A stretch of DNA of 64,000 bases, from assembly GCF_037975245.1 (NCBI RefSeq), contig NC_092567.1, forward strand, positions 26,594,876-26,658,875, in the 5' to 3' direction. The translations under genes were made by a program, and so were the position numbers. Source of the stretch: Apostichopus japonicus. Lineage: Eukaryota; Echinodermata; Holothuroidea; Aspidochirotida; Stichopodidae. Position 1 is the stretch's first letter, and every line of letters starts with the position of its first letter. Below, piece by piece: positions 2,281-41,400 of this stretch. Under the pieces are notes generated by a model, which was given only the letters and a program-made list of their open reading frames with translations, was not told the DNA's origin and ran no database searches.

Positions 2281-2299
2281 TCATAAATTAAACGTTTGC

Positions 2300-5672: not shown

Positions 5673-8600
5673 CTGTTGAAAAGAGAGTGAGAGAGTGAAA
5701 AACAATAAGAAAATAATAACAAGTATATACATTTTGCGGTCATGTTGAACACGTTGAACATTTGTTTTCTCCTGCATGAAATAATGCAGTATTTGATTTA
5801 TGTATTGTAATGCTAACTCAGTCTAAGATTCTGGGGCGTCCAAACATTCCCTGCTGAGGACTGGTGGTGGTATGGAAACAAATGCGGCTTGGATGGTTGT
5901 ATGTTAGTAACGACGAGCCTTAAATCTCGATATTACATGCAAAGAATATAACACAAAGATAAACGAGTAAAGAACAAGCGCTGTGTAGATTTCGCAATCT
6001 ATTACTATAACCAGCCACGGTAAAGACAATACATCGGCACGAAGCCCTCAATAATAAGTAGAAAACATGCACTTAACGATAATGGTTACAAACGAGGTCT
6101 CAATACCGAAGTAGAGTCCTATAACGATACGTACAAAAGTGTATGAAAGACGAATACAAGACAGATACAAGTACGACCACAATGGTCGGAGCCAGGGCTA
6201 CTACCGAACCAAACGATTCAGATCGGGAGCGAAGACTGGCCACAGGTCATGAGGTCTGCTTCAGCTGAGCTGGTGAGCAGACATCACGTGACCTGTAATA
6301 ATACGTAATGTAGCCTACGGGCAATTAGGGGCGACAGATATGATGAGCAACGGCATCACAGTATTTGAAACAATTTTAACGTTTTTAGGTAGTTTAGAAG
6401 GTAAACCTTATAAGTTAATTGATGACTGATGGATGGTAATAAAACCAATGTCATTCGTTTGTTGAAAGTCCAAAAAAGACACAAACCCAACCGTAGTGAT
6501 AAACATAACTGTCGATGTCGACCCCCCCCCCCTCTCCCGCCCCCTTCTCACCTTACCCCATATTCCACAGCCAGAAGACACACATCTAACCAACATGATT
6601 GGTTTACGGGTAAAGATAAATACCATTTACTACTTTTCCCAAACAGCTGTTGAAATTCTTATTCCACATGAATGATATCACTGATTTAATGTTTCGTCAC
6701 ACTCAAGGCTTATGACTTGATCAAGTCTAAATATGACATCATTATCGAGTAACATGTGTTGCAACTTTTTATGTTCTTCTTTATCTATGTGAATGTATAT
6801 TTATGGAGATGAGCTACACAGACGCTGAACCTAACATATTAAACCTCTTAACTTGACCTAATGATGCCATTTGTTGCTTCATTTGTCAAAGCTGTTAACT
6901 TTCTACCTTGACAATATTAAAAGAAAAGAAAGTTTCACATCGTAGATGTACAGCGACATAAAAAAAATCCCAAAAGACAACTGTCAGATACGATTTAAAC
7001 TTGTCTGCGATATCGCCAACGCAAACAAGAGTTATCGTAGCTGTTGGTTCTTCAAAGATGTAGATCTCTACCATATAAGACAAAGTTGATGGTTGCATGG
7101 TTTGCGTCCCTTTAAACGTGAATGTTACCGATGCAGTGGTTAAAAATACTGCACTTATGTGACAATGATCTCGTGTTGTTATGATTTTTATATAACAAAT
7201 GTATGATGTTGTTTTGATTAATAATTAATATTTAATATTATCGATAAAGATTGGAGATTTCCTACCGGTTCATAATTAAAGAAGAACAGTTATTAATAGC
7301 AATCCAAAATAAAGTGAAAATAATTTATGTTAATATCGTTACCATGATGGCACAGATGAGCGCTGGGATGGTAAAAAGGAAAGACCATGGGCAGCAAATC
7401 AGTGTGATGACAGAGAAGACGAGCGCCCCCGTAGCTCCGCCAGAGTTTTGAGGGGCAGGACTTTGTACGACGACCACGTGGGGGTTAGGTTGGTAACCCT
7501 TTGGTGAAAAAAGAGGAAAGAAATATACAAACAATAGGAATGGCATTTTTGCTTTTATTGACCGAGAATTATACAAATCTGAATACCTCGAAATTGTAAC
7601 ATGCATATACCGTAAATCTTCGTATTCTGCTAAAACATTAGTTCGCCTTTCAGATTATTCCCGCATATACGCTACTAGGAGGGGAATTCATATGAGCGTG
7701 GCAGTAAAGCCTAAATATTCCTTCATGTGTGAGTATTACTGAGAATGAAGTGACCTTCTATAGTGGTATTGTAGTCCTAAGTTAGCTCATGCATGATAAC
7801 CATTTATGTTTAGAACACTAAGCTCGTGTTGTAAGTTTGGTTGGTGTTGTTTACTGCTAGAAAGAGAGAAACAATCGACAGCAAAAACCGACATTTTATA
7901 GCAAGTAAAATCATGAAGCATGGTATGATACATTTTGGGAATCTTTACGCAGGACTTCTTGTAATGCGATATTTCTAATTGTATAAATTGAATTCAGATT
8001 CAATACAGAAGTAAGATACAATTCAATATCTTGGTGTTTGCGGTAAGTATGGTTGTGTACTTCGCTTGTCGCTTGTCGCATTAATTCGAGAACTGTGTTA
8101 AACATTTGTAATTGCACTGATAGACACTGTATAGCTGCCGTGTTTGTTAGTCAAATTATAAACACTTTCTCAATTGCAATTTTAATCTATAAAGATTGCG
8201 CAAACGTCCAAATTGCCACAGTGAAACAATGAAACATCATATTTATATTTTGAGACCCTTTAGTGGATAATTCTACCCATTTACCTGGATTACACAGTAA
8301 CTTCAACGCGTGCGCGACATTAGGAAAGTTTTCCCTTACTTCAAGTAGATTGACAACCAACCTTTACAAGCTTTATTCCTTCTGTTTCCTACGGAATGTG
8401 ATTGAACAATTGATGACATCAAATAGCTTAGTAATATAAATAAACCACTGAGTTAAATCAGCGAGATCGTCATCACCGCTAGTTTTTTAAAGATAATTAA
8501 AAGCTCTAATCTATCGAGAATTAATGGTATATCATCATACATTATGTACACTGGTGACCTAAGAGACAACAGACAGAAAAACAGTCACACAGACAAAGAG

Positions 8601-8999
8601 ACAAACAACGCGGACAGGAGAAATGACCGTGACGCAAAGAGACAGACAGAATGGCAAACAGACGGACTCTTAGAAAATTGGAAAAATACAATGAAATCAG
8701 TTCTTATCATACTATAAAAGCTTAGAAAAGGTTACAACATAAAGAAGGTCTTTAACACGATATTAATAGGCAATCTGACACACACACACAACAGTTTTAC
8801 AAGCTGAGAGACAAAAAGGTAAACTGAAAAATAAGGAAAAAGAAATGATCAAGAATATTAAAGGTCATTTACAAAATATAACTAAATCCTATGAAATTGT
8901 GGACATTTTACATATTTAGTTTTATTAAGTAGTAAATGTCAATTCTCACCTGGTTTGGTTGAGTGGTCTGAACGTACTGTTGTTGTGGTGGTTGTTTTT
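5466..8999 (-). CDS. CD225/dispanin (IFITM-like) gene A
   Basis: Three joined minus-strand exons (8950-8999, 7343-7498, 5466-5672) give a partial protein of 136 residues, with the first exon missing. Order: a short Gln/Pro-rich piece (KQPPQQQYVQTTQPNQ), a linker, a first membrane segment with the double cysteine (FSVITLICCPW), a polar loop (NNDNSDLARTF) and a second long membrane segment (ALFYVAFVISIIVFVIW), ending in an Asn/Phe-rich tail. This hydrophobic-CC-loop-hydrophobic layout is the CD225 domain of dispanins, which includes the IFITM proteins. Family members are small membrane proteins, some of which restrict virus entry; that role is not shown here. Intron phases agree at both junctions. 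A second copy lies at 33029-35471. Confidence 0.8.
5673..7342 (-). other. Intron of dispanin-like gene A
   Basis: A 1670-bp intron, against 574 bp for the equivalent intron in copy B. Most of the difference is at about 5800-6365 and 6485-7030, which copy B lacks. A C-rich run sits at about 6520-6545. No coding exon is recognised inside. Confidence 0.6.
7343..7498 (-). CDS. Dispanin-like gene A, first membrane-segment exon
   Basis: A 52-codon exon in phase 0, from a CCAAAG acceptor to a GTAACG donor. It encodes GYQPNPHVVVVQS, a short Gly/Ala stretch, and the first CD225 hydrophobic segment with the paired cysteines of the family (ICCPWSF). In IFITM proteins the equivalent cysteines are palmitoylated; this is inferred here from position only. 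Confidence 0.75.
7499..8949 (-). other. Intron of dispanin-like gene A
   Basis: A 1451-bp intron, matching the 1444-bp intron of copy B at 33978-35421. A conserved open stretch on the minus strand around 8240-8360 includes ENFPNVAHAL. It has no start or clean splice sites and is left unassigned. Confidence 0.55.
8950..8999 (-). CDS. Dispanin-like gene A, Gln/Pro-rich exon
   Basis: A 50-nt exon between a TTTTGTCAG acceptor and a GTGAGA donor on the minus strand. It starts with two bases of a split codon and then reads KQPPQQQYVQTTQPNQ. Pro/Gln-rich N-terminal regions are common in dispanins. The exon that should carry the start codon was not found between here and the end of copy A. Confidence 0.7.
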
Positions 9000-9789
9000 C
9001 TGACAAAATAGAAATAAACATCAAATTATGGATTATAAACCAGCCTATAGATTAACGGGATAGAGCGTCTAAGGGAGTGTTTTGTCATTATTCATGTAAC
9101 TTTAAAGGAGTGTTCCAGACATTAAGAAATGTTAATACCAAAACAATCACTAGTTTTCGTTTGTCACTGTATGTATTCGGTCTTAACTATAAATAATCCT
9201 AATGTATTAAAGTTCAACTGACTGCTGTCTCCCTGAAGTTGCAGTTTTAGGAAGGTGTTGCAACCTGACGTGTCCTTTTTTATATATGGAAATGTATATT
9301 TATGGAGATGAGCTATGCAAATGCTGAACCTTACATATTAAACATCTTAACCCGACCTAATGATCTCATTTGTTGTTTCATTCGTCAATGTATAATGAAC
9401 CAGTTCATTGTTATACTCTCTCTACAAACTTAAAAATAATAACCTTTTTTTCCAAACCTTTATCTACAAAAGTTTCCTTGTTCGCGACAAATTTATCACC
9501 ATTTGCCGTTTGAAAACAGTTTCAATGCAGCTACGTAGTGTCATGAAGTGACATTACACCTACTTTAAATTCCTTTCAAACTCTTGTAAGGTCTTCAACA
9601 CTTTTTTCTTTTGACCTTCAAGTTTTCGGCTGTTAATTCCCACGGTTCCCGAATAAAGAAATACATTAGAAATTGTTCCGTCTTTCTTCAGACTTCTAGT
9701 TTAGGAGCCGTATTTTCCACCCAGTTGGGCCTTTTTTCTTTCTATACTGTAAAGTCATGTCTCGCTTCAGAGGCCTCGTATTGTCAGTA

Positions 9790-12330: not shown

Positions 12331-12424
12331 ATCCGTAGAATCGCGTCAAAACTCAACAAACAAGTTCCGTATGCTTCAGTGTGTCGCTTCGTATGGAGGG
12401 CTATCAGTCACAAATCGTGGGGAA

Positions 12425-12915
12425 TCGACTAATACCGATTTAAATCGACATATACCAGTTTCCTTCGACTTACACCAGTTTCCAGCTGAGTTGCTTAAAT
12501 TGACTTCAACCGATTTAAATCGACATATACCAGCCTAATTCTACATATCATCGATTTAAATCGACATATATACCACTTAATTCGACATATCATCGATTTA
12601 AATCGACATAAACCAATTTAAATCGATGATAAGTAAAATAAATCGGTATATGACAATTTAAATCGACATATACCATGTTTAAATCGATGATATGTCGAAT
12701 GAAATTTTTATATGTCAATTTAATTCGACATATACCGATTTAAATCGATGATATGTAAAATAAATCGGTATATGTCAATTTAAATCGACATCTACCAGTT
12801 TAAATCAATGATATGTCGAATTAAATCGGTAGAAGTCAATTTTTTGGACTTATACCAGTTTCTAGCAACTCAAATTGACATATACCTATTTAAATCGACA
12901 TATCATCGATTTAGC
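12425..12915. repeat. Palindromic TTTAAATCGA array
   Basis: About 490 bp made of alternating direct and inverted short blocks around the palindrome TTTAAA: ATTTAAATCGACATATACC, its reverse complement GGTATATGTCAATTTAAAT, and the ATCGATGATATGTCGAA arm. Both orientations alternate, so single strands could fold into many hairpins. Possible weak terminal inverted similarity lies at about 12405-12430 and 12925-12955. It resembles the subterminal arrays of the foldback element at 18481-21484, but the unit sequence is different. Confidence 0.75.
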
Positions 12916-12929
12916 TCATTAACATATTC

Positions 12930-17429: not shown

Positions 17430-17770
17430 CTGTTTGTACCATCTTTAAACTACGGTCTAGCTAATGAAATCCATTTGGAATTCAATTTCAGTATTACATA
17501 GCATCAAACATCCCCTTTTGTGAAAATAAATTAGGTCTTACCCATTTCCATAGTGGTGAGTTCAGTATTGTTCTTCAAAAAGTACGAAAATAGGACAAAA
17601 ATAACAATGAATCAAGACCGATTTGAAAGATACGACAATTGTAACAACTACACTGTAACGTGACACGAATGTTATGAAGCTCTGCTGAATGTTACAATGG
17701 ACGTACAGATGTGTGTTCACATTAATAGTCTACAGGAATTACAATGACTGACCAGGGTAACCAGTGACAA
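17430..17770 (+). repeat. Interspersed repeat R1, copy 1
   Basis: This sequence recurs at 18250-18480 (continuing at 21493-21530) and at 45543-45805. Shared words include ACTACGGTCTAGCT, GGTCTTACCCATTTCCATAG and AACAATGAATCAAGACCG. It encodes no recognisable protein. It shows the undisrupted text (GTACAGATGTGTGTTCAC at about 17704) that the foldback element has split in copy 2. Confidence 0.75.
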
Positions 17771-18249
17771 GTGTCATAAAACCCGCTAGATAATGCCGAA
17801 ATAAAACCTAAGAAAACGCTAGAAATCAGTTTTCACTAACTTCAATCTTTGGTAGCTCTGATTCATATGATAGGCAGTACAGTGATCATTTTTAATAACA
17901 ACTTGTAACGGTTTATCACAATCAAGGAATAATGTAAGAAAATTAACTGTGGGTTTTTACAAACGAACTGATTCAGGCCTCCAAGTATGAAAAGTCTCTT
18001 ATGAATAGAGTTTACGCGGTATTATAAAGTAAAAGCCATGGAAACATATAAATGCCATGGAAACCTATGGGTTGCCAAGTGGTAATTTTGTCTCGAAAGT
18101 TTAAGAAAACAATTATCTTGTGAATTACCAAATTTGGGCTAAAAACGCTAGACTCCCCCAAATTTGAAAAAAAGGAAGAAAAGGAAAGTGAAAAATCGCT
18201 AGATCTAATTTAAAAACGCTAACGCTGGTAACCTTGTGGCTGATATTAC

Positions 18250-18480
18250 TTCGTCATGCCATTTGGAATACAATTTCAGTATTAAAAAGCATGAAACAAC
18301 CCCTTTTGTGAAAATGATTTCGGTCTTACCCATTTCCATAGTGGAGTTTAGTATTGTTCTTCCAAAAGTACGAAGGTAGGACAAAAATAACAATGAATGA
18401 AAACCGAATGATAGCAACTACACTGTAACGCGACACGAATGTTATGAAGCTCTGCTGAATGTTACAATGGATGTACAGAT
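18250..18480 (+). repeat. Interspersed repeat R1, copy 2 (left part)
   Basis: Second copy of the R1 repeat. It is cut by the 3.0-kb foldback element after the GTACAGAT target and resumes at about 21485 (TTACAGATGTGTGTTCAC). Confidence 0.75.
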
Positions 18481-18499
18481 ATGCCAAGCCAATTGCTCA

Positions 18500-18900
18500 A
18501 TAAATCGAAAAACATGGATTATCGGTCGAAAAACCATGTTAATCGACCGATAAACCATGTTTTTTTATAAAAAACCATGTTTACCGAACGATAAATATGG
18601 ATTTTCGGTTGATAAACAAGGTTTGTCTGCGAGAATCCATGTTTATCGCTTGAAAAATTTATGTTTATTGCTTGCAAAACATGGATTATCGCTGATAAAC
18701 ATGGTTTTTCGGCAATTAACATGGTTTTACAGTCAAAAAACAAGGTTTATCGGCCACAAACTGTGTTTTCGAGCGATAAACATGGTTTTTCGAGCGATAA
18801 ACATGGTTTATCGCCCATAAACCATGTTTATCCCCGATAAACCATGTTTATCCCCGATAAACCATGTTCATCGCCTGTAAACCATGTTCATCGCGTAAAA
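18500..18900. repeat. Left subterminal ATCG/CATGG array of the foldback element
   Basis: Repeated AAACATGGTTTATCG and CGATAAACCATGTTT blocks of about 20 bp in alternating orientation. The match to 21040-21460 is in inverted orientation. Confidence 0.85.
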
Positions 18901-19439
18901 ACATAGCTTCAGTCCCGCACAATCCGCACATGGACAAGTGCGGAATAACAATCGGCAACGGACAGGCTTAGTACACCGTCATCGATCGGACACCGATCTC
19001 ACGACACAAGCTATATCCGCTAAGTACTTCAGAAATCCGCAACCTCAGAAATAATCATGGAGGTTATATCATCGGTAAGTTCAAGTGTCGATTATTGTAC
19101 AAGTGCATGCAAGAGTTTGTTCTAAATCTTGTTCGCAACAGCGCGGGGCCGTCACGCCCAGTGCCCCATGCATCCCACTGCCCAAAACTTGAGGTAACCA
19201 CTGGCAGTTTTGAACTGTGCGTGGCCAGGGGAAGAGGGGGGTCACTTGCGGCCCAGACGTGGCCTTAAGGGTTGATGACGGCAACTACCGAAAGTACGGC
19301 TACCGCATGAATAACTTGCCGACTAGTCACAGCTGCAACATGAACCATTTGCCCACAGGAGAATTGTTTTATTACCTTTTTGGGGGGAAGGGGGGGGGGG
19401 TTCGCCCGCCCTGCTTTTTTGTTGTTGCTATTATTACTG

Positions 19440-19790
19440 TATGAATACTTGATCTTTTTCCGTTTATGATAAATGGACTTATTTGCTATTATGAACATCG
19501 AACCTTTTTTCCGATTATGAATAACAGACCTTTTTTTGCTAATATGAATATCGAACCTTTTTTCGATTATGAATAACGGACCTTTTTTGCTATTATGAAT
19601 ATCGAACCCTTTTCCTGATTATGAATACCGGACCTTATGAACAATGACCTCTATTTTATGAATAACGAACCTTTTTCCCGATTATGGATAACGAACCTTT
19701 TTTTCGAAAAAATGCACGATATGAAAAACGAACCTTATGAACAATAACACTTATGATTAATTGTCCTTATGAATATCGGGCTGACCCCAT
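19440..19790 (+). repeat. TATGAATAACGAACCTTTTT repeat
   Basis: Roughly seven diverged units of 25-50 bp with the core ATTATGAATA(A/T)CG(A/G)ACC followed by a T-run. It lies inside the foldback element. It is not coding. Confidence 0.75.
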
Positions 19791-20109
19791 GAGTTGAACA
19801 TCAATTGACATGTTTCAAACAATTCTATAGAATGCCAATTGATATCACAGCATATATGCTGTGTCTGGGTAGGCCCGGGCAGGGTGAAATTTTCAGGGCG
19901 GTGAGGGTGAATATTCCCTAAGAAAAAGTGTTGTTATAGAGGGAAAATTTTCTGCAGTGTTACAACTTGAAACCTAGGCATAGGGCTTAGTAGTGGTATT
20001 GCTACTGATCTTTCAGGAGCTCTTGAAAAAGGATCGTCAAAGTTTCCCAATACTGGGTGAATCTTTGATAGTGTATGGGCCTATAGTAACGTATTGTAAC
20101 ATATAGTAA

Positions 20110-20765
20110 GTAATTGCTACAGGCCCCTAGTCTGAACAGTGAAACTTTTACTCAGTCGGAGACAGAACCTATATTGAAGCCACAATATAATTAGCAACAA
20201 TATGATTAACCATAACATGACAGACTTACTCAGCTGTTAGCCTTCAATAGGGATTTAAAGATCTTCTATATTGGTCCCAATTACAGCACACTATAGCTAG
20301 GAAAGTTTTGTGATTACGCAATCGACCTGCCACGGTCGTAAATCAACCTATAAAGTTCTAGACTGTACAATTAGCCCGCGTAGCTTCTTAACATCATTAG
20401 GCTCTTTAAGTAAACACTGTGTGGAATTATGTTCATGTCTACAGTGTAGTTAATCATAAAGCGCCTTCACACAAATACCCTTATACAAGAAAAAGTATGT
20501 GGCAGGCGTTGCAGACTAATTGATAAGAAGAGGTCATTTTACGACCAAGGCTGGGTGATTACGTAATCCCAAGAAACTTTTCCATGATAGCGTGCTACAG
20601 TTAGGGTCTATACAGAAGACCTTTAAAGTCATAGGAAATAGCCACAGAGCATAATAGGAACTCATTTTTACTCTATGGAATAGCCTTATTGCATAATATA
20701 AAGGCTTACAATAGTCCAAGGGCTAAGATAAGTCAAAACTACAGTTGAAAATTCCGCAGTAAGCT
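20110..20765. repeat. Imperfect long inverted repeat
   Basis: The arm at about 20110-20345 is the diverged reverse complement of 20533-20765. For example TTACGACC(G/A).GGC near the loop, GTGCT.(T/C)A.TT.GGG, and AGAAGA(T/C)CTTTAAA are shared in order. About 190 bp separates the arms. It lies inside the foldback element and may be the trace of an older nested foldback copy. Confidence 0.65.
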
Positions 20766-21039
20766 GGAAAGTCTGTGTATGAAATTGTCAACAGAAGGTT
20801 GGGAATTTGATACTCTCTCCTATCTATTCGGCAAAGGCGCCAACGCAGAATTTATAAGGATATACAACCATGAGCACACCATGAACAGTCTCACACCGGT
20901 AACAGGGGCCATATTTCGTTGTTCCTATTATGGATAGGGCTCGCCAACATGCGGCTTCGGAACCAAAAATTTATCACATACTAACATAACATGTACAGTT
21001 TTTGGAAGTAGTTCCGGTAAATTTTCATCAGTCGCCAAA

Positions 21040-21460
21040 TATAAAACCATGATTTATCGCCGAAAAACTATGCTTATCGGTCGATAGACAAGGTTTATTG
21101 CCGATAAACATTGATTTTCTACGAATTACATGGTCTTTCGGTCGAAAAACCATGTTTATCGCCGATAAACATGGTTTATCGCCGATCAACATGGTTTATC
21201 GCCGATCAACATGGTTTATCGCCGATAAACATGGATTTCGAGAGATAAACTTGGATTATCGAAAAAACTTGGAAGATCTAATAAAAATCCATGTTTATCG
21301 TTCGATAAACCATGTTTCTCAGAAAAACCATGATTATCGGCAGATAATTTTTTGGTGACAAACCATGTTTATCGGTCGATAAACATGGTTTTTCGGTCAA
21401 TAAACATGGTTTTTCGAGTGATAAACATGTTTTTTTTGACCGAAAATCCATGTTTTTCGA
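21040..21460. repeat. Right subterminal ATCG/CATGG array of the foldback element
   Basis: Includes four nearly perfect 20-bp units around 21140-21235 (CATGGTTTATCGCCGAT(A/C)AA). These are the least diverged units in the element and suggest recent local tandem expansion. Confidence 0.85.
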
Positions 21461-21529
21461 TTTATTGAGCATTTGGCTTGCCATTTACAGATGTGTGTTC
21501 ACATAACTAGTCTACAGGAATGACAATGA

Positions 21530-22140
21530 AGAACAATAACAATGTCGAGGCAAATATCCAATGAATAGAAAATCGCGGTTTATCGCTTGATACCTCGAAC
21601 ACTCGACCGTAACATGTTTTCGACAGGTTTTTGTCATTTTCTCATTTATTCCGTGGTATTTCGGGGATTTCCTACTACTTAACTTGTTAGTAAAAAACTG
21701 TCATAGAATGTTTGGCATCTGATTTTGTTTGAGTCAAGAAAGAGAATAAGTCTTGTTTCTTATTTCTTGGTAAAATAGTGGTCTAATACACGAGAACTTG
21801 TTCTCAGAAATAAAATGTTAAATAGCTTACATCAATAATGTGAAATAATAAGCTATGGTTGGTTTCACGTTATTTTGTTTTGATAAAGCAGGTGCTTTGC
21901 GCTTTGTCGCCGTTTTCCCAACCTTTTGAAATGTCCGTCGAGTTTTTTACATATTTACAGGCTATTCATCACAAAACCGCAAACTAAGATATGAACCAAG
22001 TTTTTTCCCTGCCAAAATCATTAATTGGCGAGTACTTAAGGACTGTTGCAGATAATGAGCAGAGTGTATTTTGACAAACTTTGACAAAGTTCCGCAAAAA
22101 TACTAGTTTGAATTCAACCAAGCAGTGAATAGATCAAATA
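21530..22140. other. No gene recognised
   Basis: AT-rich spacer between the foldback element and copy B of the segmental duplication. No transposon or coding motif is seen. Confidence 0.5.
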
Positions 22141-22794
22141 TACATCATCACCACTACCACTGCAACCACTCAGACATACTGATATTTTCTCCAAACAATG
22201 ATGAACAGATGCTGGTCCGCACTACATGCCCTTAGAAGTGATTGTATTCTTGCTATCTGTCCCCACCCACTCATTGATAAATGTGTTTGACTCCATCTAC
22301 TGTAGTCAGTGAAGGTTCTTCAGCTTTGCGCTACACCCCACTCCCATCACTTTACCATGCATCGATCACACAACGAGAAAGAATATTAACATGCCACAAT
22401 GTCGCAAACTTTGCAAATTACCCATTTCCATGACTACAAAGTTTGTCCAAGTTAAGACCGAATGATAAATCGATTTCAGGAGACGTTTTTATTTATTCAG
22501 AACCTTCGAGAATTAGCTAAAAAGTATAATGAATCTACAACTGAGCATATACACCTTAAAATGACGGAGACTTTATATACATAGTATTAGACTTCCTTAT
22601 CGAAAGAGTTGGACAAGTTGGCTTTTAGAAAACGTTTGCATATTATTATCTTGCCCTGATAAAAATGACAAGTTCCAAAGCTGTAAATTATAAGCGTTTT
22701 TGCTAGGCGTTAAGAAACAATATGAATGACCTATATCGTTCATTTCACTAATACAAAGCTATTGACATACTCTGGAAAAACAGGGGGGACGTCT

Positions 22795-23097
22795 TCATTG
22801 TATTCTGTCTCTCAGCGCGTCAAAGTAAACTAGCACGACATTTAGTAGTTCCACCCATTTTGGAAACCAATAGCGTATATCTACCGTGAGTAATTTATGG
22901 ATGCTCTGTGTTCCTGTAGCATAGTCTACTGTGATTTTTACGATGCTATACAGTACTGAAAACAGTACTGTGTAACTTGTCAAACATCTTTGAACACATT
23001 TACTTTGAACTTTGCTTTGATAAATGAATATCAAAATAAAGCCATAACGCTTAATGACAAGTCTCTTCAAAGTCAGACTAAGTGAATATACAGACAA
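22795..23097 (-). CDS. Unrecognised ORF shared by both copies
   Basis: A 100-codon open frame whose C-terminal part matches the 62-codon frame at 1575-1763 in copy A. In copy A the upstream part (KRLVIKRYSF, seen at 1796-1860) is in another frame. No family is recognised. It may be a chance frame in duplicated DNA. Confidence 0.2.
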   Translation of the reverse strand: MSVYSLSLTLKRLVIKRYGFILIFIYQSKVQSKCVQRCLTSYTVLFSVLYSIVKITVDYATGTQSIHKLLTVDIRYWFPKWVELLNVVLVYFDALRDRIQ

Positions 23098-23219
23098 TTA
23101 GAAATTAGAAAATTAGAAGGGATACAGAACAGATGCAGGATGTAGGTACTTATGAAAGAAAGAACAGTGACCTCCGGTCCCGACATGTCTCTCTACAACT
23201 CTGTAGCCATAGTATCATG

Positions 23220-23872
23220 CAAAGGCGGCGGAACCGGGGGGGCACAGGGGGCACGTGCCCCCACTTTTCCTCAGGTTAAAATGTGCCCTTTTTCTACATA
23301 ACAAATTGAGGTGTCTCAAGTTAGCAAGAGGCCAGGGAACCAGAATGAACACTCGGGAAAGGCCGTTTCCGGCCATCTGAGGGGTAACTTTGTAAAACCA
23401 AAATTTTCTGGTACGCTCCGCGCCAACCGATGGTGGCGCTCCGCTCAGATAGTTGTGCATATAACTTTGCAAATCCTAGCTACGCCCCTGAATTTTCATG
23501 AATTTCTGTGGGTCAAACTCAAAGCTATTTCGAATGGAAAAAATTTGTTAAGATATTAACAAGAAATAAGCTCTAATTCGGAAAATTCCTACATTAGCAA
23601 CTAGCATGATTTCACCTCATTCAAAAAAAACTTGTTCCTTGTTTCCCAATTTGCACATTGGATATTGCAGTGCTAGTATGCATATTTTCCTTGAAGGGGG
23701 GGGGGGGGGGGGGGGGCGTTGATGGAGTGATGTGTCATGATACGCAAATAAGATAATACAATAAGAGTTATAAAGGGTACTAAATATAAGGCTGCATCAG
23801 TCCAATCGAATTTCTGAAAAGTGCCCTTTGATGTCGGTGCCCCCCAGATTAAAAGTGCTTCCGCCGCCCTTG
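23220..23872. mobile_element. Non-autonomous hAT element with 8-bp target duplication
   Basis: A 653-bp element. The left end is CAAAGGCGGCGGAA and the reverse complement of the right end is CAAGGGCGGCGGAA. GTATCATG flanks it on both sides (23212-23219 and 23873-23880), a perfect 8-bp duplication. Copy A has the uninterrupted site at about 2010. The interior shares about 200 bp, in reverse orientation, with the hAT elements at 42413 and 44014 (CTAACTTGAGACACCTCA, GGAAACGGCC). A G-run of about 20 lies at 23697-23716. No transposase frame is recognised. Confidence 0.9.
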
Positions 23873-23880
23873 GTATCATG

Positions 23881-24138
23881 TATAAATGGTTTGGGACTCG
23901 TCCAGATGTTGGGGGTCGTAGTTGGTAGCTAGCTTGAGCGTCTCATCGAGAAGACAGTTAACTTCGTCTGCTCTGAACATAAAGGTTAGTATTTGAAGTT
24001 GAAATGTCGTGGAGCCAACATTAGTTGAACAGTAGTCTTGGCCAATTCGTTTGTAATACTTTTTCTCGCGTTAATTCATACATCAGAGTCGGGAACTTAG
24101 AAATTACTTCTTTAAGTACTTTCGAATTTTCAAAGAAG
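23881..24138 (-). pseudogene. Frameshifted copy of the ORF at 2014-2280
   Basis: Same sequence as the copy A frame, but two bases are missing near 24060 within the REKEYYK codons. The reading frame is therefore broken. If the copy A frame is a real exon, this copy is not functional in the same form. Confidence 0.35.
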
Positions 24139-24180
24139 ATTCATATATTAAACGTCTGCTTGTCTCTTATTGTTTCGTAA

Positions 24181-25205
24181 GGAACCTTGTCGATTTTATC
24201 GGCTGTATTGTTTTTAAATTGTATTTCTTTATTTTTTTCTAAATTCCATACCAAGGACACATGCGATAAAGTGATGCATACTTTTAAAGGAGTTGGATTC
24301 TTCCTCTGGCAGCTTACATCTCCATTTACTATGAAGAGAGTTATACAAACCACGTCGTTGTTTGTTATGACGTCACAGAAACCACAGACTAACATCCTTT
24401 AGTCGAAGATGACGTCAAAGCTTTCCTTCTAGATTTTTCTTTATACAAGATTCTTTGACGAATTTTTCGATTTATTCAGAATTTAGCTATATTGTGAAGA
24501 AGTATACAATTAAAATACAAACGTGTGTGATTTTCGTTTGTTGAAAAATATAAAACATAAATAAAAAAAAGTTCATTATATGTGTATTGTATGGTGTAAT
24601 ATTTAGGCATCAGTTGTTTCGAATTATAAACCGCTTTGACTTTTACGGATATGCGTTGCGTCTCACAAATTTAATTTTGGTTTGGTTTCATTTGCAAATT
24701 CTATCCTCAATTTCAAATTCTTGTTGATATATTTGATAGTCTACTTAAACCAGAGTATGTTCACAGGTATACCTAGTGTTCCCGTATACCTGGCAATATG
24801 ACATCAACATGTTGTTAGTATAACGGGCCTTTCCATATAGTTCGCAGTATATGCCATGTCTACGGATTATGTACCTGGCTATTCTTAAAAATACTTATTC
24901 TTTTCGATGCCTTTAATTAGGCGTATATTCATTCCATAACGTCACTGGTCTCTTAAGAGGACAAACATCTTATATTGCAGAGGAAATTTCTTTTGTACAT
25001 CAGCATTATTTAGCCTCCACCCACCCCCCCCCCCCCCTAAAGGAGAGAAAGACATAATGGGAGAAAATTATTTCCTTGCTTCCGTTAATTACGAAGTTTA
25101 CTGACAATATGATACTTTCTCTACAAATATTTCACGGAATAAATCGCGAAGGAGACCTAAATTTCTCATTGATAAACTGCACACATCACCTGATTACAAA
25201 ACACC
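24181..25205. other. Copy B-specific stretch
   Basis: About 1 kb present in copy B but missing from copy A at about 2320. The minus strand opens a short frame ending KVPYETIRDKQTFNI at 24141-24395. A C-run lies at 25025-25038. No transposon ends are recognised, so it could be a deletion in copy A or an insertion in copy B. Confidence 0.5.
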
Positions 25206-26089
25206 TCTCCGGCAGGACTTCCCCTTAAATGCTTTCATACTACAATGTATATGCATGCCCACTCTGATTTACATGTACCAATCTGGGCGAAAGTTCTTAT
25301 TTTGGTATGGTGAGAAGCCTTAGAGAAGATGAGTATGGACATTGCGTTTACTACAAAGCACCTTGTAACTTGAATACTCTCCCGATGAGAAGTGGAAAAA
25401 TACCAAAGAGAAAAAAACACACTGACAAAAGACGAAAGAAGGTTTTACTTGGTGAAATTTGAATATGACGAACAAAAATGCAAAAACATGGGTGTAAAGC
25501 TTTGTAAAAACTAGGGTTAAAACTTTAGTGAATAAAATTATTGAAAAGTGTAACCAGCCGTTATCTCATTTACGCATTCTCATACAACAAAAACAAATCA
25601 ACAGAGCGCCCTCTCGTTCATCAATTTTCTCTTTTAAATTTATTGCATGATAAAGTTGCACGTTTATTCCGTCAAAGAAATGTTGAGTCCATATTTCAGA
25701 CAAGATTTGCTCGACATTTTTAAAAATGTATCTCTTTTTAACCAACAAATTGAGCTTTGCACACCTTTAAATTACGCAAGAAATAGTAAGGCAACATCTA
25801 AAAAACTGTTTGTTGGTTTGGTATGAAATACCTCTCAAAACATGTGAAAGTTATTCAGTATCTGTCTAAACACGTTAATGCCCTTTATACTTTTCTCTTA
25901 TTCGCCTATTATTATTATTTGAATGGGACAACTTTATTATATGGATAAGTTGTTGACCTTTGACTTAAGAAGATTTTAATCCCAATATTACCGGACTGAT
26001 TGATCAAAATGATACCGCATTCATGGTTTATTTGGCTCCCTGAAACAATTATGATATAATACAGTACATATACAATTTATTGGTCGTCA

Positions 26090-26965
26090 TCTATATTTTA
26101 CGTTTAGAAAGATGACTAGACACCTGTAACTCGCTCCTCTACGGCCTTCCAGACAAAGACATCTCCAAAGCTCCAACATGTTTTAAACACTGCTGCTCGT
26201 CTCATCTCTCGTGTCCCTCGTTCTCAGCATATATCACCTATTTTAAAATATTTACATTGGCTTCCTGTTAAGATGAGCATCTCTTTCAAGATTCTTCTGA
26301 TGTTATTTAAAGCTATACACGGACACTCTTCAGTCTATCTGTCGGAACTTATTCACCCTTACAGACCGACCAGGATGCTAAGGTCATCCAGCCAGTCTTT
26401 TCTCACCGGCGTCCCAAGGGATATTTCCTTAAATTCATTTTGTCAACGTTTTTTATCTTACGCCTCTGCTTCTCTCTGGAATGTCCTCCCGACTGACATT
26501 CGCCTAAACGACAATTTGAACTCTATTCTTATGAAGTTCTTAAGCGCTTTTGCGCTTTATAAAATTCCTATTATTATAAATATTACTAATTTAATTTTTC
26601 CTAATCCTTTCCTTGATAGGATAACAGTAAGGGGAGTAGGTGGTGTAGTTTATAGGCACTGATCACCCAATCCTTGACCGAGAGGTGTTCATCTGCCATC
26701 TGGATGCCCGAACTGTTCTGAATCTCCGGATGCTTTCAGTTTAGGTCATGTATAGTGCACACCTCCCACCGCACCGCTTAGGTGTGCTTCTGGGGTGAGG
26801 GGGCCAGCAACCCCCCACCCGTCAGTAGTTCCTAAGCTGTTGTGAACCACTGATTGGCCCATGTTGATTTATTTTATAGTGCCTCACAGCCTATATTAGC
26901 TCTTGACTTATGTCAATCTTCATGGGCTATTGTTCACTCTAGCTTTTATAAATGAAATAAAAAGT
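26090..26965 (+). mobile_element. LINE 3' end (CR1/L2-like)
   Basis: The plus strand encodes the C-terminal end of a CR1/L2-type reverse transcriptase protein: CNSLLYGLPDKDISKLQHV, NTAARLISRVPR, LKYLHWLPVKMSISFKIL and SASLWNVLPTDIRLN, with a frame change near 26260. A 3' untranslated region with GGTGTG/GGGGTGAGG words follows and ends near AATGAAATAAAAAG. Everything upstream of the C-terminus is missing. It lies in the 2.3-kb part of copy B that copy A lacks. Confidence 0.85.
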
Positions 26966-26969
26966 ACAT

Positions 26970-28084
26970 GCTCATGATATCAGGAAAATAACCTTTCTTT
27001 CAGAGGTCGAATCTTCATCACTAGATTCCAAAAGTTAAACACAATGACAGTTGTAAGCAAATGGGAAGTAAAATGGAATCGCACACTTACATTACAAGAA
27101 GAACTGAATATGCGCTGAATGTGTTAATGCCTTCTCTTCGTTACATATCCAACATTCAAGTGAAAAGTGTTGACTGAAAGATATTTTCACGTAAATGGCA
27201 CAGTATGAGTTCTGGAGTAATCGTAGCCAAAAAACCTCTGGTCAAACTTGTCTGAGCAATATAACATATATGACAAGCAAAACATCTTGTACGTAAACAT
27301 CTAACAACTTTTGTTATACTTTCTAAGAAATTTCACCCAAGATAGAGTATGGGCACAAAAAGCCAAACAACTTGATCCATTCTCAAACTAACAGTCTTCT
27401 TAACATTGAGAATTTAATCGCATGATCACGTTGGTTATTGTTTGGTTTCTGCAGTTTGAAGTCAAGATGGAATAAAGGTGAATTAAAATACCACTCAGAT
27501 TATCCAACGTGTTCAACAAAGAGCGATAGAGCCCATTGCGTGTTGGTCATAACCTATGTTGTAGTTGCCATTATATATTTGTAAGTAATTGTAGTTTTAA
27601 ATCTGTTAAGTGTTCATCAGACTGTTAGCCAAGTGAATTGCAAAAGTAATACAATGGGTAACCAGAATTCAGACCAATAGGTCGACTACATATTTAGTAA
27701 AACTAAAATGATCAAAAGAGAGTTTTGCTGTTTAAACTAAATTATAGCAATTAAAGATATAGCGGACTCCATTCATTTTGAGGAAAATATCAAGCAAATA
27801 CTTTACCCAATGCAGGTGACTTAATAGAACGTAAAATGACGACATCAGTTTCACACATTTAATCGCCAAAAGTGATATATTGGTCAAGACTGAGTGGATT
27901 TTAAGTTTTTTAAAGTATATACAGACTAAACCCGAATAGTACAGCAGTTTTTAAACGTGATATATATTATGATCGTGAACGAAATTTATCGCTGCCTCCT
28001 TCTTCTTTGGGGGGGGGGGGGGCGGGGTGGTGTCAGGTGCCGTCCGGTTTGGTTGGGTGTTTTCTCTAGTGTATGTTATGTAGT
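26970..28084. other. No gene recognised
   Basis: The remaining part of the 2.3-kb stretch unique to copy B. It is AT-rich with one G-run (about 28009-28022). No coding or terminal repeat signal is seen. Confidence 0.5.
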
Positions 28085-29466
28085 TTTACCAGCGTATCCA
28101 TGTTGAATAAATGATTTTACTAAAGACCCTGGAGACCTCTGTACACCGTGACTGTTGTGCTGATGTTGCTTGCCAACTTTAAAAGATACCTTACAATTGA
28201 ATTTGGTCCAGGTACATTGTGTAAACTGTGCTATGACCAACGTACCAAGAAGGGGGAAAAGCTTAATGCATCGTTAAAATGATGGCACTAGCTTAATACT
28301 GAGCACTAATTTTATAGCAAATACTGTTATGAACTTTACTAGCATCCGTACATTCAATATTACGAGAAAAGGGCATTACCATGCCTCTTATTCAGTGAGA
28401 GGGGTTTGACCCTTTTGCCGTAGGTCGCCTAACAAGCTTCTGGTCAATTTGACCAACCCTCTTCATCCTCACGGGTTCTTTTTCAACATCAAGGGGAGAC
28501 ATGGACACGGGATCCTAGGCCACAAAAGGTGCCACACCACCAGCGGTGCGTTATGAACTCCAGTGAGCCTAGAAATCTAGTAGGGTTTACACAACCGGCA
28601 GAATGAGTCGTTCATCTACCTCCATTAACACCTGTCACCACGTTAGCTAGTGAAACATATGTTTGAATTAATGTATAAGGACTTCACAGAGGAGTATGCG
28701 AAGGGAGACACGAGTATTGCATAAACTAAATATAGATGGATTCGACCCCGGAGCTGCAGGTTAACAGTCACTGAGCAACCTGAAAGTGCATACGACAAAT
28801 CCAGTATACGGATTCGTATGACTCATTTTGAGTTTAAATAATCGAATGCTTGAGATAAAATGTTATCTTGCTGTATCAAACTATCCGCATCATAATAATA
28901 GAGGATATAGTGAATTTTTGGGATAAAGTTGTTGTTTATTTGAGAAAGAAACCAAAAGCTTGAAAGAAAGTCAATGTCTTGATTAAAAAAAACCGTAATT
29001 TTGAGGAACGAGTCGAAATATCATTGTAGAACATTTTCAGATAAAAGTTCAAATCTTTATTTGTCTTAAAATATATCAAGTAAATGCTAAAATATTTATA
29101 ATAAAAGGCAGCATTTTGAGCTAAGAAGCAGAAATTTGTATATTAAATGTTGGCAATTTAGAGAGCAAAAATCTAAACTCTGGGGATAAAATGAAACTTG
29201 AAAGCTGAGATATGTCTTAACGTCTTTCCTCTTCACTCGAGTTTATCTACCTCACTGCCCTTGGTAGTCTAGTTTGAGTTTAATTTCACAGGTTACAAAC
29301 TTCGAAAAATCTTCAGCTCAGCCCCCCACCCCATCCTCCTCCATTCCTTTGCCTCTTATTATGTTACCAGAATTAATATGTCCATATAAGTCTATGAAAA
29401 CTACATATTCAGAGGTGCTTCCACTTTTTTATGTAGTTTAAAGCCACATGCGGAGGTCACACTATC

Positions 29467-32015
29467 ACTGGCATTCTTGTGTCTGATATAAGTGACAATT
29501 TACCCATTATATGCTCAGCTGCGTTCAATTCTTCAAATTGCTCACACGGTACTACCATATATGTCATGAAAAAGGATACGTCGAGGGGTAATTATAAAAG
29601 GTTTTCCTCTGAGCTCAACGACTTCAACTGGCATCAACTGTACACAAAAACAGATGTAAATGATGCATGTAATTTCTTTGATGGTATAATAAGTGAGATC
29701 TACAATAAATATTGTCTCATTAAACGTACTACCGTCAATTGGTCACGCAAACGCAATTATTGGACTACAAGTGGAATTATTTTAATCAATTGCTACTAAG
29801 AAAAGACTTTACAAATCGTACCTCCAAAACAGATCTCCTCGAAATAAGTTTAACTACGTCAATTACAAAAATATCCTTACTTCAAACGCAATTATTGGAC
29901 TACCAATGGAATTATTTAAATCAATTGCTACTAAGAAAAGACTTTACAAATCGTACCTCCAAAACAGATCTCCTCGAAATAAGTTTAACTACGTCAATTA
30001 CAAAAATATCCTTACTTCTACTATTAGGCTTTCAAAAAGTGTTACTATAGCAATTTACCCAATGAAAATAAAATAATCAGAAGGAACCTGAAGAACTATA
30101 ATGAAATAATTAGTCGAAGCAATTCAACCAGAAAGATGCAGTTTAGAATAAATGACAATAGTGAAGAATTGACTTCAGATATAAGGGTTGCTAATTGTTT
30201 TAATGATTATTTGCTAGTATCGGTACGAACCTAGCCGGTCACTTTGAAGAAAGTAATGTCAGCTTCACTAGTTTTCTTAAAACCTCTAATCCTAATACTA
30301 TATTTATTTCTCCAACTAACTGTACGGAAATATCTAAACTCATTAAGAATTTGACAAAAAGGTTCAGCTGCTGGGACTGTCTGTATAACTGCTAACATAC
30401 TTCGTACCTGCAAACTCTTCTTGAACCGCTCACCTATATGTGCAACCCTTCTCTCTATAGTGGTATTGTTCCTTGTAGTATGAAAGTTGCTAGAATAACA
30501 CCTATTTTCATAACTGGTGATCACTCAGTGCTTTCAAACTACCGACCAATCTCGATTCTTTCAACAATTTCTAAAGTTCTCGAGAAAACCATGTATAAGA
30601 AACTCACAGACTTCCTAGACAAGGATGATATCATTTCATAACGTCAATTTGGTTTTCGTGAGAATCTTTCCACGTATATGGCGGCAGCAGTATAGTCCAG
30701 TATATCGATAATGGCTTCAATAACAATGAATTTACTATTGATGTGTTTCTAGATCTTTCTAAAGCATTCGACACTGTCAACCATTACATCTTACTAAAAA
30801 AACTTAGCCATTATGGAATCCGTGGGGTTGCATATGATTGGTTGGAGAGCTATCTTAGCGAGAGAGAACAGGTTGTACGCATTAATGATCCAACTTCTAA
30901 GACCAGTACAGTACGCTGCGGCGTCCCACAGGGATCTGTACTTGGACAACTACTTTATCTTATCTACATAAATGACGTGTGTAACTGTTCTCATATCCTT
31001 AACTTTACACTCTTTGCAGACGACACAAGTATTCTTTTTCAAGCACAGTGATATTCATTGTGCTGGTCGTGTCGTTAACTCTGAACTATATTATGTATCT
31101 AACTGGTTTAAAGCAAATAAGTTGTAAGCAAAACAAATTGTATTATATATCGTCCTGTTCAGCGAAAGGTTGATACAGTTAACGTATTTATTGATGATGG
31201 TGATATTACTCTTTAATGTTTAGGTATTCATCTTGACTCAAATCTCACCTGGAAGTTTCATATTAACAGTCTACGCTCCCATATCCCAAAAATTATTGGA
31301 ATACTTCATAAAATTCGCTATTTTGTACCATTGCATACACTTAAAACACTGTACGACTCCCTCATTAATTCAAAGCTGTCTTACTGCAACATATTTTGGG
31401 GAAACACCTATCCATCTTACCGTAATCGCCTGTTTACTCTCCAGAAGAAAGCCATTAGACTGATTACAAATTTTAGTTATCGTGCTCAGAGTAAAATTAT
31501 ATTTTCTAACTTAAAAATCTTAAATATCTTCGACACATACAAACTCCAAGTCGCTCTATTTATGTATAAATGAGTTAATGGGGTTTTGCCTTATAACATT
31601 GATGATTACTATCTTTTTAACTACAATACACGCGTTTGTCAAAACTTCCGAACAAATGTTATCACTTCCGAGAGGACTCATCGACATTTTATTCATTCTG
31701 GAGTTACAATCTGTAATAGTTTGGAAAACCAAATTAAAAACATTCAAAAGTATTCATTGCTTCAAACAAAACATGAAATCCATTTTACTCAACGATTATT
31801 ATCATTAAGCAGTGATTTTTTCTTTTTTTTTCCTTTTTTCTTTGTTCTTTTCTCTTTTCTTCTTCCTTTTACTTTATCCTTTTTATTCTTTCGTTTATTG
31901 TTTTGTAAATGGGGACTGCTCGTAAAAGCTCTGCTTCTTCAGTCCCCCTCCACCTCCTAACTATTCACCAATGTATTTATATTATGTGGAAAGAAATCAA
32001 ACTCAAACTCAATGA
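29467..32015 (+). mobile_element. LINE with RT, inserted in copy B
   Basis: A 5'-truncated, dead non-LTR element in the plus direction. Recognisable pieces are STISKVLEKTMYKKLTDFL, a stop, FGFREN, FLDLSKAFDTVNHYILLKK, CGVPQGSVLGQLLYL, TLFADDTSILFQ (intact F-A-D-D box), GIHLDSNLTWKFHIN, and the C-terminal LQKKAIRLITNF. Stops and frameshifts interrupt it at least six times. A 136-bp stretch is tandemly duplicated at 29750-30021. The 3' end is AATCAAACTCAAACTCAA. Copy A is continuous across the site (about 4660-4690), so the insertion came after the duplication. Confidence 0.88.
29750..30021 (+). repeat. 136-bp tandem duplication inside the LINE
   Basis: The unit beginning ACGCAATTATTGGACTAC occurs at 29750 and again at 29886, with only a few differences. 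It sits between the endonuclease remnant and the RT region. Confidence 0.9.
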
Positions 32016-33028
32016 CGAATCAGTGCCTGAACTTTCCTGATGACTTTCCTGATGAGAAGTAAAATTATAAATGATTGAATGAAAAATACACGAACAAATT
32101 GACTTCGAACAGGACAACAATGCTTCCTTTAAAATGTAATTCTTGATTACACAGTCCTCTTAATATTCGTCATGAAACAAGTGCAAAAGTTATGTTTTAT
32201 AAAAGATAAGTTAAAGTATAGGAAATGGTGTTACCAATAGCATAAATATATAAATGATAGCTAGAAGCTGTGCTTAAATTGATCTTTATCGCCTAGCCCG
32301 CTAAAACTATTTCTAAATGATTAAAAGGCGTTAATAAAACTTCACGAAAATGTGTGGAAACCATTTTCCTCTGGGGAATTCATGTCAAATGGATAATTCT
32401 GGTTATTAATTAAGTACATGGCGACAAGTACAACACATTGCAAAACAAAGAAGGATAGAAAATATTAAAGAAATAAACAACTAAACAAAAAAAAAGAAAC
32501 TAGTTTTCAAAAGAATACCCCCCCCCCCCACACACACACACACAGACACCTACAAAACTCTGTTCGTAATCAAATATAACACATGAATGTGCTCACATTA
32601 TCCCAAAGTACAAGAACAAATAAAGGAAATAGCAACGATTAGATTTTAGACATGATGAATATGTATTTCTTGAGTGACTAACTCGATCCCGGTTTTGGAC
32701 ACACCCACATGGCATCTCTTTATGATAGTAACTTAAGTCTACCCGGAACTAGCTAATTAATTCATGAAAGCAGTTAAAAGTGTAATTTAAATGTCAAATG
32801 CCGACTGCGAGCGTTGCCAATTTAAATGGTAGGTTTGTGGTTTTTCAAGCTCTTGAATAATCTATGCAATGGAGAAAGAAGAACTTATTTTAATGCAAAT
32901 TACTAATAAACAAGATGAAAAAAATTTAGTTGTTTACTATTTTATTTCATTAATTTTGTCACTACATCTATAAATTATAGTAGTCACCAATTTTTTTTGG
33001 AAGGAGTGATGAAAACCCAACATTTCTT
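32016..33028. other. Shared non-coding part of copy B
   Basis: Matches about 4690-5465 of copy A. It contains a C-run followed by CA repeats at 32518-32545. No gene is seen. Confidence 0.5.
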
Positions 33029-33244
33029 TTAATTGAAAACACTGTAATCAAAAGAATTGTTGTAAACATGATTAAAATTTGCATCAACATAATTATTATA
33101 AGTATAGAGAGCTTCATTAGCGAACATAAACCACCAAATAATAACAATGACAATACTGATCACCAAAGCCACGTAGAAGAGCGCTGTGGCAACGAAAGAC
33201 ACATGTGTCAAAGATCTAGCCGAGTCACTGTTGTCGTTAAGTGC
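33029..33244 (-). CDS. Dispanin-like gene B, last exon
   Basis: A 71-codon exon plus a TAA stop, after a TTTCCGACAG acceptor. It carries the loop, the second membrane segment and a tail with YTYNNYVDANFNHVYNNSFD. The end SFDYSVFN is the only tail block shared with gene A. Confidence 0.75.
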   Translation of the reverse strand, partial: ALNDNSDSARSLTHVSFVATALFYVALVISIVIVIIWWFMFANEALYTYNNYVDANFNHVYNNSFDYSVFN

Positions 33245-35471
33245 CTGTCGGAAAGAGAGTGAATGGGTAAAAAACAATAAGTAAATAATAACAATTATAT
33301 ACATTTTTCGATCATGTTGAACACTTTTAACATTTGCATTCTCCTTCATGGAATAATTCAGTACTTTATATATGTATTTATAACCATTTTAAACGTTTTT
33401 AGGTAGTTTAGAATGTTAACCTGATTAGTATGTCGATGACTGCCGGATGGCAATAAAACCAATGTTTTTCGTTTGTTGAAAGTCCAAAAATAGACCAGTA
33501 CGTATATGCAATATACGTGGTTCTTCAAAAATTTAGATCTCTACAAAATAAGACAAAGTTGATGGATGCATGGTTTGCGTCCCTTTGAACGTGAATGGTA
33601 CCGATGCGATGTTGACGTTCCCTGCACTTACGTGGTAATAATCTCGTGTTGTTTTGATTTTTATATAAAAACTGTATGATGTTGTTTTGATTAATAACAA
33701 ACGTTTGATATTATTATTAAAGATTGGAGATTTCCTATCGGTATATAATTAAAGTAAGAAAAAAAAGATTAAAAACAATCCAGGATAAAGTGAAAATAAT
33801 TTATGTTAATATCGTTACCGCGATGGCACAGATGCACGATGGGATAGTACAAAGAAAAGACCCTGGGCAGCAAATCAGTGTGATGATAGAGAAGACGAGC
33901 GCCCCTATAGCTGCGCCAGAGTTTTGTGGAGGAGCAGGACTTTGTACGACGACCACGTGGGGGTAAGGTTGGTAACCCTATGGTAAACAAAAAGGAAAGA
34001 AATAAACAAACAATAGGAATGGCATTTTTGCTTTTGGCTTTTATTGACCGAGAATTATACAAATCTGAATGCCTCGAAATTGTAACATGCATATACGGAC
34101 CGTAAATCTTCTAAAGTCGTATTCTGCTAAAAAAAATTAACTCGGCTTTCGAATTATTCCCACATATACATCATCGCTACAACAAGGGTAATCAATATGA
34201 GTGTGACAGTAAAGCCTAAATGTTCCTTCATGTGTGAGAATTACTGACAACGAAGTGACCTTCTATAGTGGTATTGTAGTCCTAAGTTAGCTCATGATAA
34301 CCATTTATGTTTAGAACACTAAGCTCGTGTTGTAAGTTTGGTTAGTGATGTTTTATAGCAAGGGAAATAATAAAGCATGGCATGGTACATTTTGGGAAAT
34401 TTCACGCAGGACCTAGTTGTAATGCGATATTTCCAATTGAATAAATTGAATTCAGATACAATACAGAAGTAAGATACAATTCATTAGCTTGGTTTTTGCA
34501 GCAAGTATGGTGGTTTACGGCTATCTTCGCTTGTCGCATTAATTCGAGAACTATGTGTTAAACATATGTAATTGCACTGATATCCATTGTAAAGTTGCCG
34601 TGTTTGTTAGTCAAATTATAAACACTTTCTCAATTTCAATTTAAATCTATAAAGATTGCGCAAACGTCCAAAATTGCCACAGTGAAACAATGAAACATCA
34701 TATTTATATGTTGAGACCCTTTTGTGGATAATTCCACCCATTTACCTGGATTACACAGTAAGTTCAACGCATGCGCGACATTAGGAAAGTTTTCCCTTGC
34801 TTCAGGGAGATTGACTACCAACCTTTACAAGCATTATTCATTCTGTTTCTGACGGAATCTGATTGAACAATTGATGACATCACATAGCTTAGTAATATAA
34901 ATAAACCACTGAGTAAAATCAGCGAGATCGTCATCACCGCTAGTTTTTTAAAGATCATTAAAAGCTCTAATCTATCGAGAATTAATGGTATATCATCATA
35001 CATTATGTACATTGGTGACGTAAGAGACAACAGACAGAAAAGCAGTCACACAGACAGAGAGACAAACAACGCGGACAGGAGAAATGACTGACGCAAAGAG
35101 ACAGACAGATTGGCAAACAGACGGACTCTTAGAAAATTGGAAAAATACAATGAAATCAGTTCTTATCATACTATAAGAGCTTAGAAAAGGTTACAACATA
35201 AAGAAGGTCTTTAGCACGATATTTATAGGCAAACTGACACACACACACACACAAAACAGTTTCACAAGAGCTGAGAGACAAAAAGGTTAACTGAAAAACA
35301 AGGAAAAAGAAATGATCAAGGAGATTAAAGGTCATTTACAAAATATAACTAAATCATATGAAATTGTGGTGAGTACATTTTACATATTTAGTTTTATTAA
35401 GTAGTAAATGTCAATTCTCACCTGGTTTGGTTGTGTGGTCTGAATGTACTGTTGTTGTGGTGGTTGTTTTG
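33029..35471 (-). CDS. CD225/dispanin (IFITM-like) gene B
   Basis: Second copy of the dispanin-like gene: exons 35422-35471, 33819-33977 and 33029-33244 give 140 residues without the first exon. The layout equals gene A: Gln/Pro-rich exon (KQPPQQQYIQTTQPNQ), first membrane segment with paired cysteines (ITLICCPGSFLC), loop (LNDNSDSARSL), second membrane segment (ALFYVALVISIVIVIIWW), Asn/Tyr-rich tail. All splice sites and phases are intact and no stop interrupts it, so both copies may be expressed. The tail after the second membrane segment is almost unrelated to gene A except for SFDYSVFN. Family members are small membrane proteins; antiviral function is known for vertebrate IFITMs only. Confidence 0.8.
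33819..33977 (-). CDS. Dispanin-like gene B, first membrane-segment exon
   Basis: A 53-codon phase-0 exon, one codon longer than in gene A (APPQNSG against APQNSG). The double cysteine is followed by Pro-Gly-Ser, where gene A has Pro-Trp-Ser. Additional cysteines (FLCTIPSCICAI) make this segment more Cys-rich than in gene A. Confidence 0.75.
35422..35471 (-). CDS. Dispanin-like gene B, Gln/Pro-rich exon
   Basis: A 50-nt exon with the same TTTTGTCAG acceptor and GTGAGA donor as in gene A. Two bases of a split codon precede KQPPQQQYIQTTQPNQ. Confidence 0.7.
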
Positions 35472-37348: not shown

Positions 37349-37351
37349 TAA

Positions 37352-38092: not shown

Positions 38093-41400
<3,308 letters not shown>

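Follow-up and report, generated by a model that had tools for sequence, protein, structure and literature searches.

Foldback elements have so far been grouped largely by their layout, and for some of them, such as Tetris, we know of no enzyme or element that moves them. P/Galileo-type elements make target duplications of 7-8 bp, and IS3EU is a little-studied group. The TU elements of the sea urchin, which Liebermann et al. are said to have described in 1983, are reportedly echinoderm transposons with long inverted repeats, 8-bp duplications, and 15-bp subunits. According to a passage of PMC10045372, IS3EU elements have TA..TA termini and usually 6-bp target duplications, and the rust-fungus IS3EU elements treated in a section of PMC12730594 end in TAYGG..CCRTA. 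For Galileo, a passage of PMC3688188 reports that the THAP domain of the transposase binds several sites in the long repetitive arms, while PMC8268682, in an excerpt, names IS3EU and carries the word "foldback" in a reference title, and among the matches listed it alone combines the two terms. The literature searched, which lay apart from Repbase and its catalogue of IS3EU families, yielded no report of a foldback IS3EU family, and no paper among the matches listed brought Apostichopus and foldback together.

The window analyzed here is a 64-kb piece of the sea cucumber host genome (C7:26594876-26658875), and the foldback element that it contains is a real transposon copy, one of a large family in that genome. 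According to our analysis, it is probably a non-autonomous IS3EU-type cut-and-paste DNA transposon with foldback arms, moved by a transposase made elsewhere, a reading to which we assign a probability of roughly three in four. It occupies positions 18480 to 21485 (3,006 bp, no strand assigned), and its tips are flanked by identical TACAGA hexamers. The initial annotation had proposed a foldback element with compound inverted ends at 18481 to 21484; the element and its layout stand, while its limits are corrected here. The inverted tips, TATGCCAAGCCAATTGC and AATGGCAAGCCAAATGC, are identical at 49 of 53 positions, in agreement with the end match of about 50 bp noticed at the outset. The left tip, of A type (CCAATTGC; 18480 to 18505, plus strand), comprises 26 bp, after which the first array unit begins, and the right tip, of B type (CCAAATGC; 21460 to 21485, minus strand), was delimited by direct reading and by mapping of the units. 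The tips of this copy are off by one base on each side, reading TATGC on the left and CCATT on the right, where the final base is T instead of the A found in the family. In the 64 kb, a 25-nt tip pattern at three or fewer mismatches matched the two element ends and nothing else (0.00 matches expected).

The left array (18506 to 18893, plus strand) consists of 18 near-palindromic 19-bp units lying 20 to 22 bp apart, with one 40-bp step, and the right array (21041 to 21459, minus strand) consists of 19 like units, mostly 20 to 22 bp apart, the other steps being 18, 35, and 39 bp. These 37 units, counted at up to seven mismatches and about 20.5 bp apart, bear out the arrays of palindromic subunits that had first been described. 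At up to five mismatches to CGATAAACATGGTTTATCG, 36 units lie inside the element, and the 60,000 nt that remain of the window once 18001 to 22000 is set aside contain none. The 2.1-kb interior (18905 to 21035, no strand assigned) has parts in common with other family copies and carries a 26-bp tandem repeat near 19455 to 19704.

Several other features of the window were observed alongside this element. A second foldback-looking element, at 60550 to 62450, has CCCTTACCYAACACGAATA as its inverted tips and GAATACTTA-type palindromes arrayed at either end; a scan of tips and duplications found no target duplication for it, and for another array of palindromic units of about 20 bp (CGATTTAAATCGACATATACC), at 12421 to 12920, neither ends nor a target duplication. 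A large diverged tandem duplication (1001 to 9789 versus 22143 to 36242) has aligned pieces that are 78 to 95% identical and several insertion/empty-site differences between its copies. A 654-bp insert at 23219 to 23872, with inverted ends GCAAAGGCGGCGGAACC and CAAGGGCGGCGGAAGC and flanked by GTATCAT, has no counterpart in the second copy of the duplication, near 2017, and an insert of 1.1 kb whose 47-nt ends are inverted (87%), at 36243 to 37349, sits exactly at a duplication breakpoint and is absent from the other copy near 9790. The window also harbors a 45-bp tandem repeat of about 60 copies (55298 to 58000) and, on the minus strand at 38726 to 40864, reverse-transcriptase and endonuclease domains spread over several frames, as in a non-LTR retrotransposon.

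The foldback element interrupts a host repeat, an uninserted paralogue of which, R1a, is present in the same window (17443 to 17747, plus strand). R1a holds a single TACAGA, at 17704 to 17709, followed by TGTGTGTTCACAT, the same sequence as the right flank of the element, which confirms the empty site that the initial annotation had recognized there. The left part of the interrupted repeat, R1b, runs from 18259 to 18479 (plus strand), and the repeat resumes at 21486 to 21529. The two copies of the target, at 18474 to 18479 and at 21486 to 21491 (no strand assigned), were read directly, and their length of 6 bp comes from the comparison of 27 paired copies described below. A third R1 copy lies at 45543 to 45805; its match to R1a ends within the 6-bp target of the foldback element, which may be chance.

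When the host genome (671,581,487 bases in 35 contigs) was searched with the 28-nt tip TATGGCAAGCCAAWTGCTCAATAAATCG, allowing up to two mismatches, 99 matches were returned, compared with none for a reversed-pattern control; a shorter, looser tip (up to three mismatches) gave 342, again with none in the control. The tip and unit patterns had no match in the viral contigs. Among 40 fetched loci, representing 38 places, 24 showed one clear end pair, one an ambiguous pair (L042), and 14 one end, while L048 had no end in the first end test. The latter was subsequently joined with L049, and the family member extending from position 375 of L048 into L049 (C13:16502274-16512713) measures 10,440 bp and has perfect 6-bp flanks, TACATT/TACATT. 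The 27 paired copies thus far assembled span 377 to 10,440 bp, 12 of them falling between 2.0 and 2.55 kb. Across 25 oriented copies, one tip is nearer to the A type and the other nearer to the B type, some with one base changed; the exception, L016, has two A-type tips and flanks that agree at three of six positions and is perhaps a rearranged copy. A 116-bp miniature relative, L051 (C1:7253080-7253195), has the same 28-bp tip without an array and is part of a wider set with the tip ...ATGCCCAATAA.

The flanks of the 27 paired copies are identical over 6 bp in 20 cases and differ at one position in 6, the remaining copy being L016. The family is therefore neither a single copy nor one whose ends fall away from target duplications, the two outcomes that the initial annotation had named as damaging to it, since 99 tips were found and 20 of 27 pairs have identical flanks. 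After removal of three copies judged to share flanks with another, 24 non-redundant pairs remain, 19 of which are perfect at 6 bp (mean identity, 0.95), whereas 1000 random pairings gave 1.26 perfect cases on average and never more than 7; with the TAT..ATA boundary, perfect cases were confined to 6 bp among the lengths of 4 to 10 bp. In related copies, the left 6-bp core is nearly always followed by T and the right core preceded by A (TAT..ATA); since these adjoining bases recur across copies, they belong to the element and the duplication is 6 bp, TACAGA/TACAGA.

Initially, the flanks had been read as matching at 7 of 8 bases (GTACAGAT/TTACAGAT) and taken as an 8-bp target. The bases are present as read, but an 8-bp duplication is ruled out by the pair comparisons: with the TATGGC..GCCATA boundary, 11 of the first 13 pairs (L016 left out) are perfect 6-bp duplications and the other 2 have one mismatch, whereas the boundary originally drawn makes 2 of the 13 perfect at 8 bp. 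The same counts bear on whether the element is instead a classical foldback, of FB/MULE or P/Galileo type, that duplicates 8-9 bp of its target. Its long inverted arms of tandem subunits have that layout, the window copy has those 7 matching bases, and a passage of PMC4079207 gives 8-10 bp duplications for Tetris, which it assigns to Mutator; however, none of the 24 pairs is perfect at 7, 8, 9, or 10 bp, and we deem this alternative very improbable. The target itself follows a consensus N-ACGT-N, with A, C, G, and T at positions 2 to 5 in 20, 19, 20, and 21 of the 24 pairs, respectively.

An element of hAT6 type (of the hAT superfamily, making 6-bp duplications) that has foldback arms would leave flanks of the same length, but we consider it unlikely, given that the TATGG..CCATA tips fit IS3EU, unlike the CAG..CTG-like tips of hAT elements. 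Neither a hAT domain nor any other transposase came out when three copies and ten further frames were scanned against Pfam. The 6-bp length found in 19 of 24 non-redundant pairs is common to IS3EU and hAT6, for which a passage of PMC12730594 likewise gives 6 bp, so the duplication length alone accommodates both. Here, instead, we rely on the combination: the family tip TATGGC..GCCATA, present in the 99 matches, agrees with the TA..TA and TAYGG..CCRTA termini, and such tips together with 6-bp duplications are the marks published for IS3EU in passages of PMC10045372 and PMC12730594, so that the family, for which the initial annotation had found no name, is read as IS3EU-type.

As had been noticed from the letters of the window, no transposase is recognizable in the element: a six-frame Pfam scan of its interior detected no protein family above the cut-off and one weak match (E = 0.062). 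The same scan found no transposase in the 10,440-bp relative, taken without its arms, or in L014. Eight further loci supplied ten longer open frames, again with no transposase found: two frames matched reverse transcriptase (one below the cut-off), three gave weak matches below the cut-off, and five had no match. In the unique interior of the 10,440-bp member, exon-like frames without a Pfam match (L048 5064 to 5528 and joined position 6682 to 7011) are possibly a captured gene. L028 and L035, as well as L025 and L047, have an interior open frame in common, which matches RVT_1 above the cut-off in L028 (E = 1.8e-7) and weakly, below the cut-off, in L035, so that some copies carry a piece of a retrotransposon. 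An interior frame of L011 and L017 resembles CATSPERB_2nd (E = 0.021 and 0.00062, respectively, both below the cut-off), possibly by chance or as a captured host exon.

The integrase-core family PF24764, which we take to be the IS3EU enzyme family, has at least 143 matches in the host genome, many of them without stops (150 of 224 candidates scored). Among the matches listed, in which 114 tip places were compared with 82 gene places, no PF24764 gene lies between two tips, and only one tip and gene fall within 15 kb of each other, with the gene outside the element. As no integrase-core gene was seen between tips, we infer the link of the family to its transposase. PF24764 matches are concentrated on C17, which holds 36 of the 82 condensed places, 33 of these between 15 and 25.6 Mb. 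In the C16 locus L052, integrase-core exons are accompanied by a helix-turn-helix match that falls just short of the cut-off; a copy of this locus on C1 is 98-99% identical over the two stretches compared (1150 to 2300 and 5250 to 5801). PF24764 copies with equal scores lie on C6, C12, and C3. Two genes were rejected as the autonomous partner. The palindromic array that neighbors the C20 gene (L053, a 431-aa PF24764 frame) proved to be a 105-bp tandem satellite, and the 10 kb joined around this gene yielded no convincing tips; the C17 gene (L054) adjoins a family copy without being inside it, with no matching tips in 4.1 kb.

The arms are built from a unit, CGATAAAC-ATG-GTTTATCG, in which two 8-bp half-sites are inverted and a 3-bp spacer sets the direction. 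In 18 of 25 copies the first unit begins exactly 26 bp from both tips, and of the unit spacings up to 70 bp in the 25 copies, 789 of 874 measure 19-22 bp, with a mean of 20.53 bp, about two helical turns. The first arm holds 12 to 33 units in the 23 of 25 copies with separable arms; arms reach about 700 bp in the family, and the 377-bp copy still carries 15 units. When 835 units of 22 copies are compared, conservation extends to most bases of the half-sites and spacer, whereas unit positions 1, 4, 13, 16, and 19 and the inter-unit bases are looser; the units entering this count were picked by likeness to the consensus, by which all values are raised. The A and B arms are 0.773 identical within a copy and 0.803 between copies, which rules out that they are kept alike by mutual copying, and the foldback shape probably arises because the units are self-complementary and not because the arms copy each other.

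The arrays might also be a nucleosome-positioning or satellite-like by-product, that is, a palindromic 20-21 bp unit tandemly duplicated within a short-tip transposon. Tandem duplication alone could yield a 20-21 bp period, and the period near 10.26 bp per half-site suits nucleosomes as well; the variation in the number of first-arm units and the 116-bp relative with a tip and no array would also be expected in such a case. This explanation accounts less readily for the 26-bp offset at both tips of 18 copies, for the 15 units retained even at 377 bp, and for unevenly distributed conservation that centers on the unit itself, albeit among units selected for consensus likeness, and we regard it as doubtful. 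In our analysis, phased arrays of transposase-binding sites appear to be the best explanation of the arms.

Under our preferred IS3EU-type reading, a transposase encoded elsewhere would recognize the tips and arms and excise the element. This enzyme would plausibly be an IS3-like transposase with an integrase core, cutting at the TA tips and inserting the element at N-ACGT-N by cuts staggered by 6 bp; the insertion step and the stagger are deduced from the duplications and the empty site. The units are predicted to be secondary binding sites, on which many transposase dimers could line up along a single face of the helix, thereby marking the true ends. Galileo, with its several THAP-domain sites in repetitive arms (a passage of PMC3688188), lends this picture support by analogy. 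We propose, tentatively and short of even odds, that a foldback IS3EU lineage uses helically phased 19-bp dyad operators in each arm to load rows of transposase dimers for end recognition, whereby elements of 377 bp to 10.4 kb would be mobilized with a preference for N-ACGT-N. If this operator-array proposal is true, an integrase-like superfamily would have acquired the foldback layout independently. The 26-bp offset seen in most copies and the 20.5-bp period provide a concrete, testable model for why foldback arms exist. Being variable in length and common, the family could also feed structural variation in its host.

Compared by description alone, the sea urchin TU elements share with the sea cucumber family an echinoderm host and long inverted repeats, and they differ from it in the sizes of duplication and subunit. 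Galileo, an element of the P superfamily in Drosophila, is similar in its long, internally repetitive inverted arms, as a section of PMC3688188 describes them, and differs in superfamily, tips, units, and duplication length. Tetris and the FB foldback elements have in common with the sea cucumber family the foldback layout, the tandem subunits, and the lack of coding capacity, according to part of PMC4079207, which for Tetris gives 8-10 bp duplications instead of 6 bp and a place in Mutator. The phased arms of palindromic units set the sea cucumber family apart from IS3EU and GingerRoot, being absent from the passages of PMC10045372 and PMC12730594 compared, and so does the lack of a transposase in the copies scanned. 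Conversely, IS3EU and GingerRoot share with it the TA..TA (TAYGG..CCRTA) tips and 6-bp duplications given in those passages, and the rust-fungus IS3EU elements, in a section of PMC12730594, share a tip inverted repeat of more than 30 bp. Exact 6-bp duplications and TATGG..CCATA tips would tie the foldback layout to an integrase-like superfamily.
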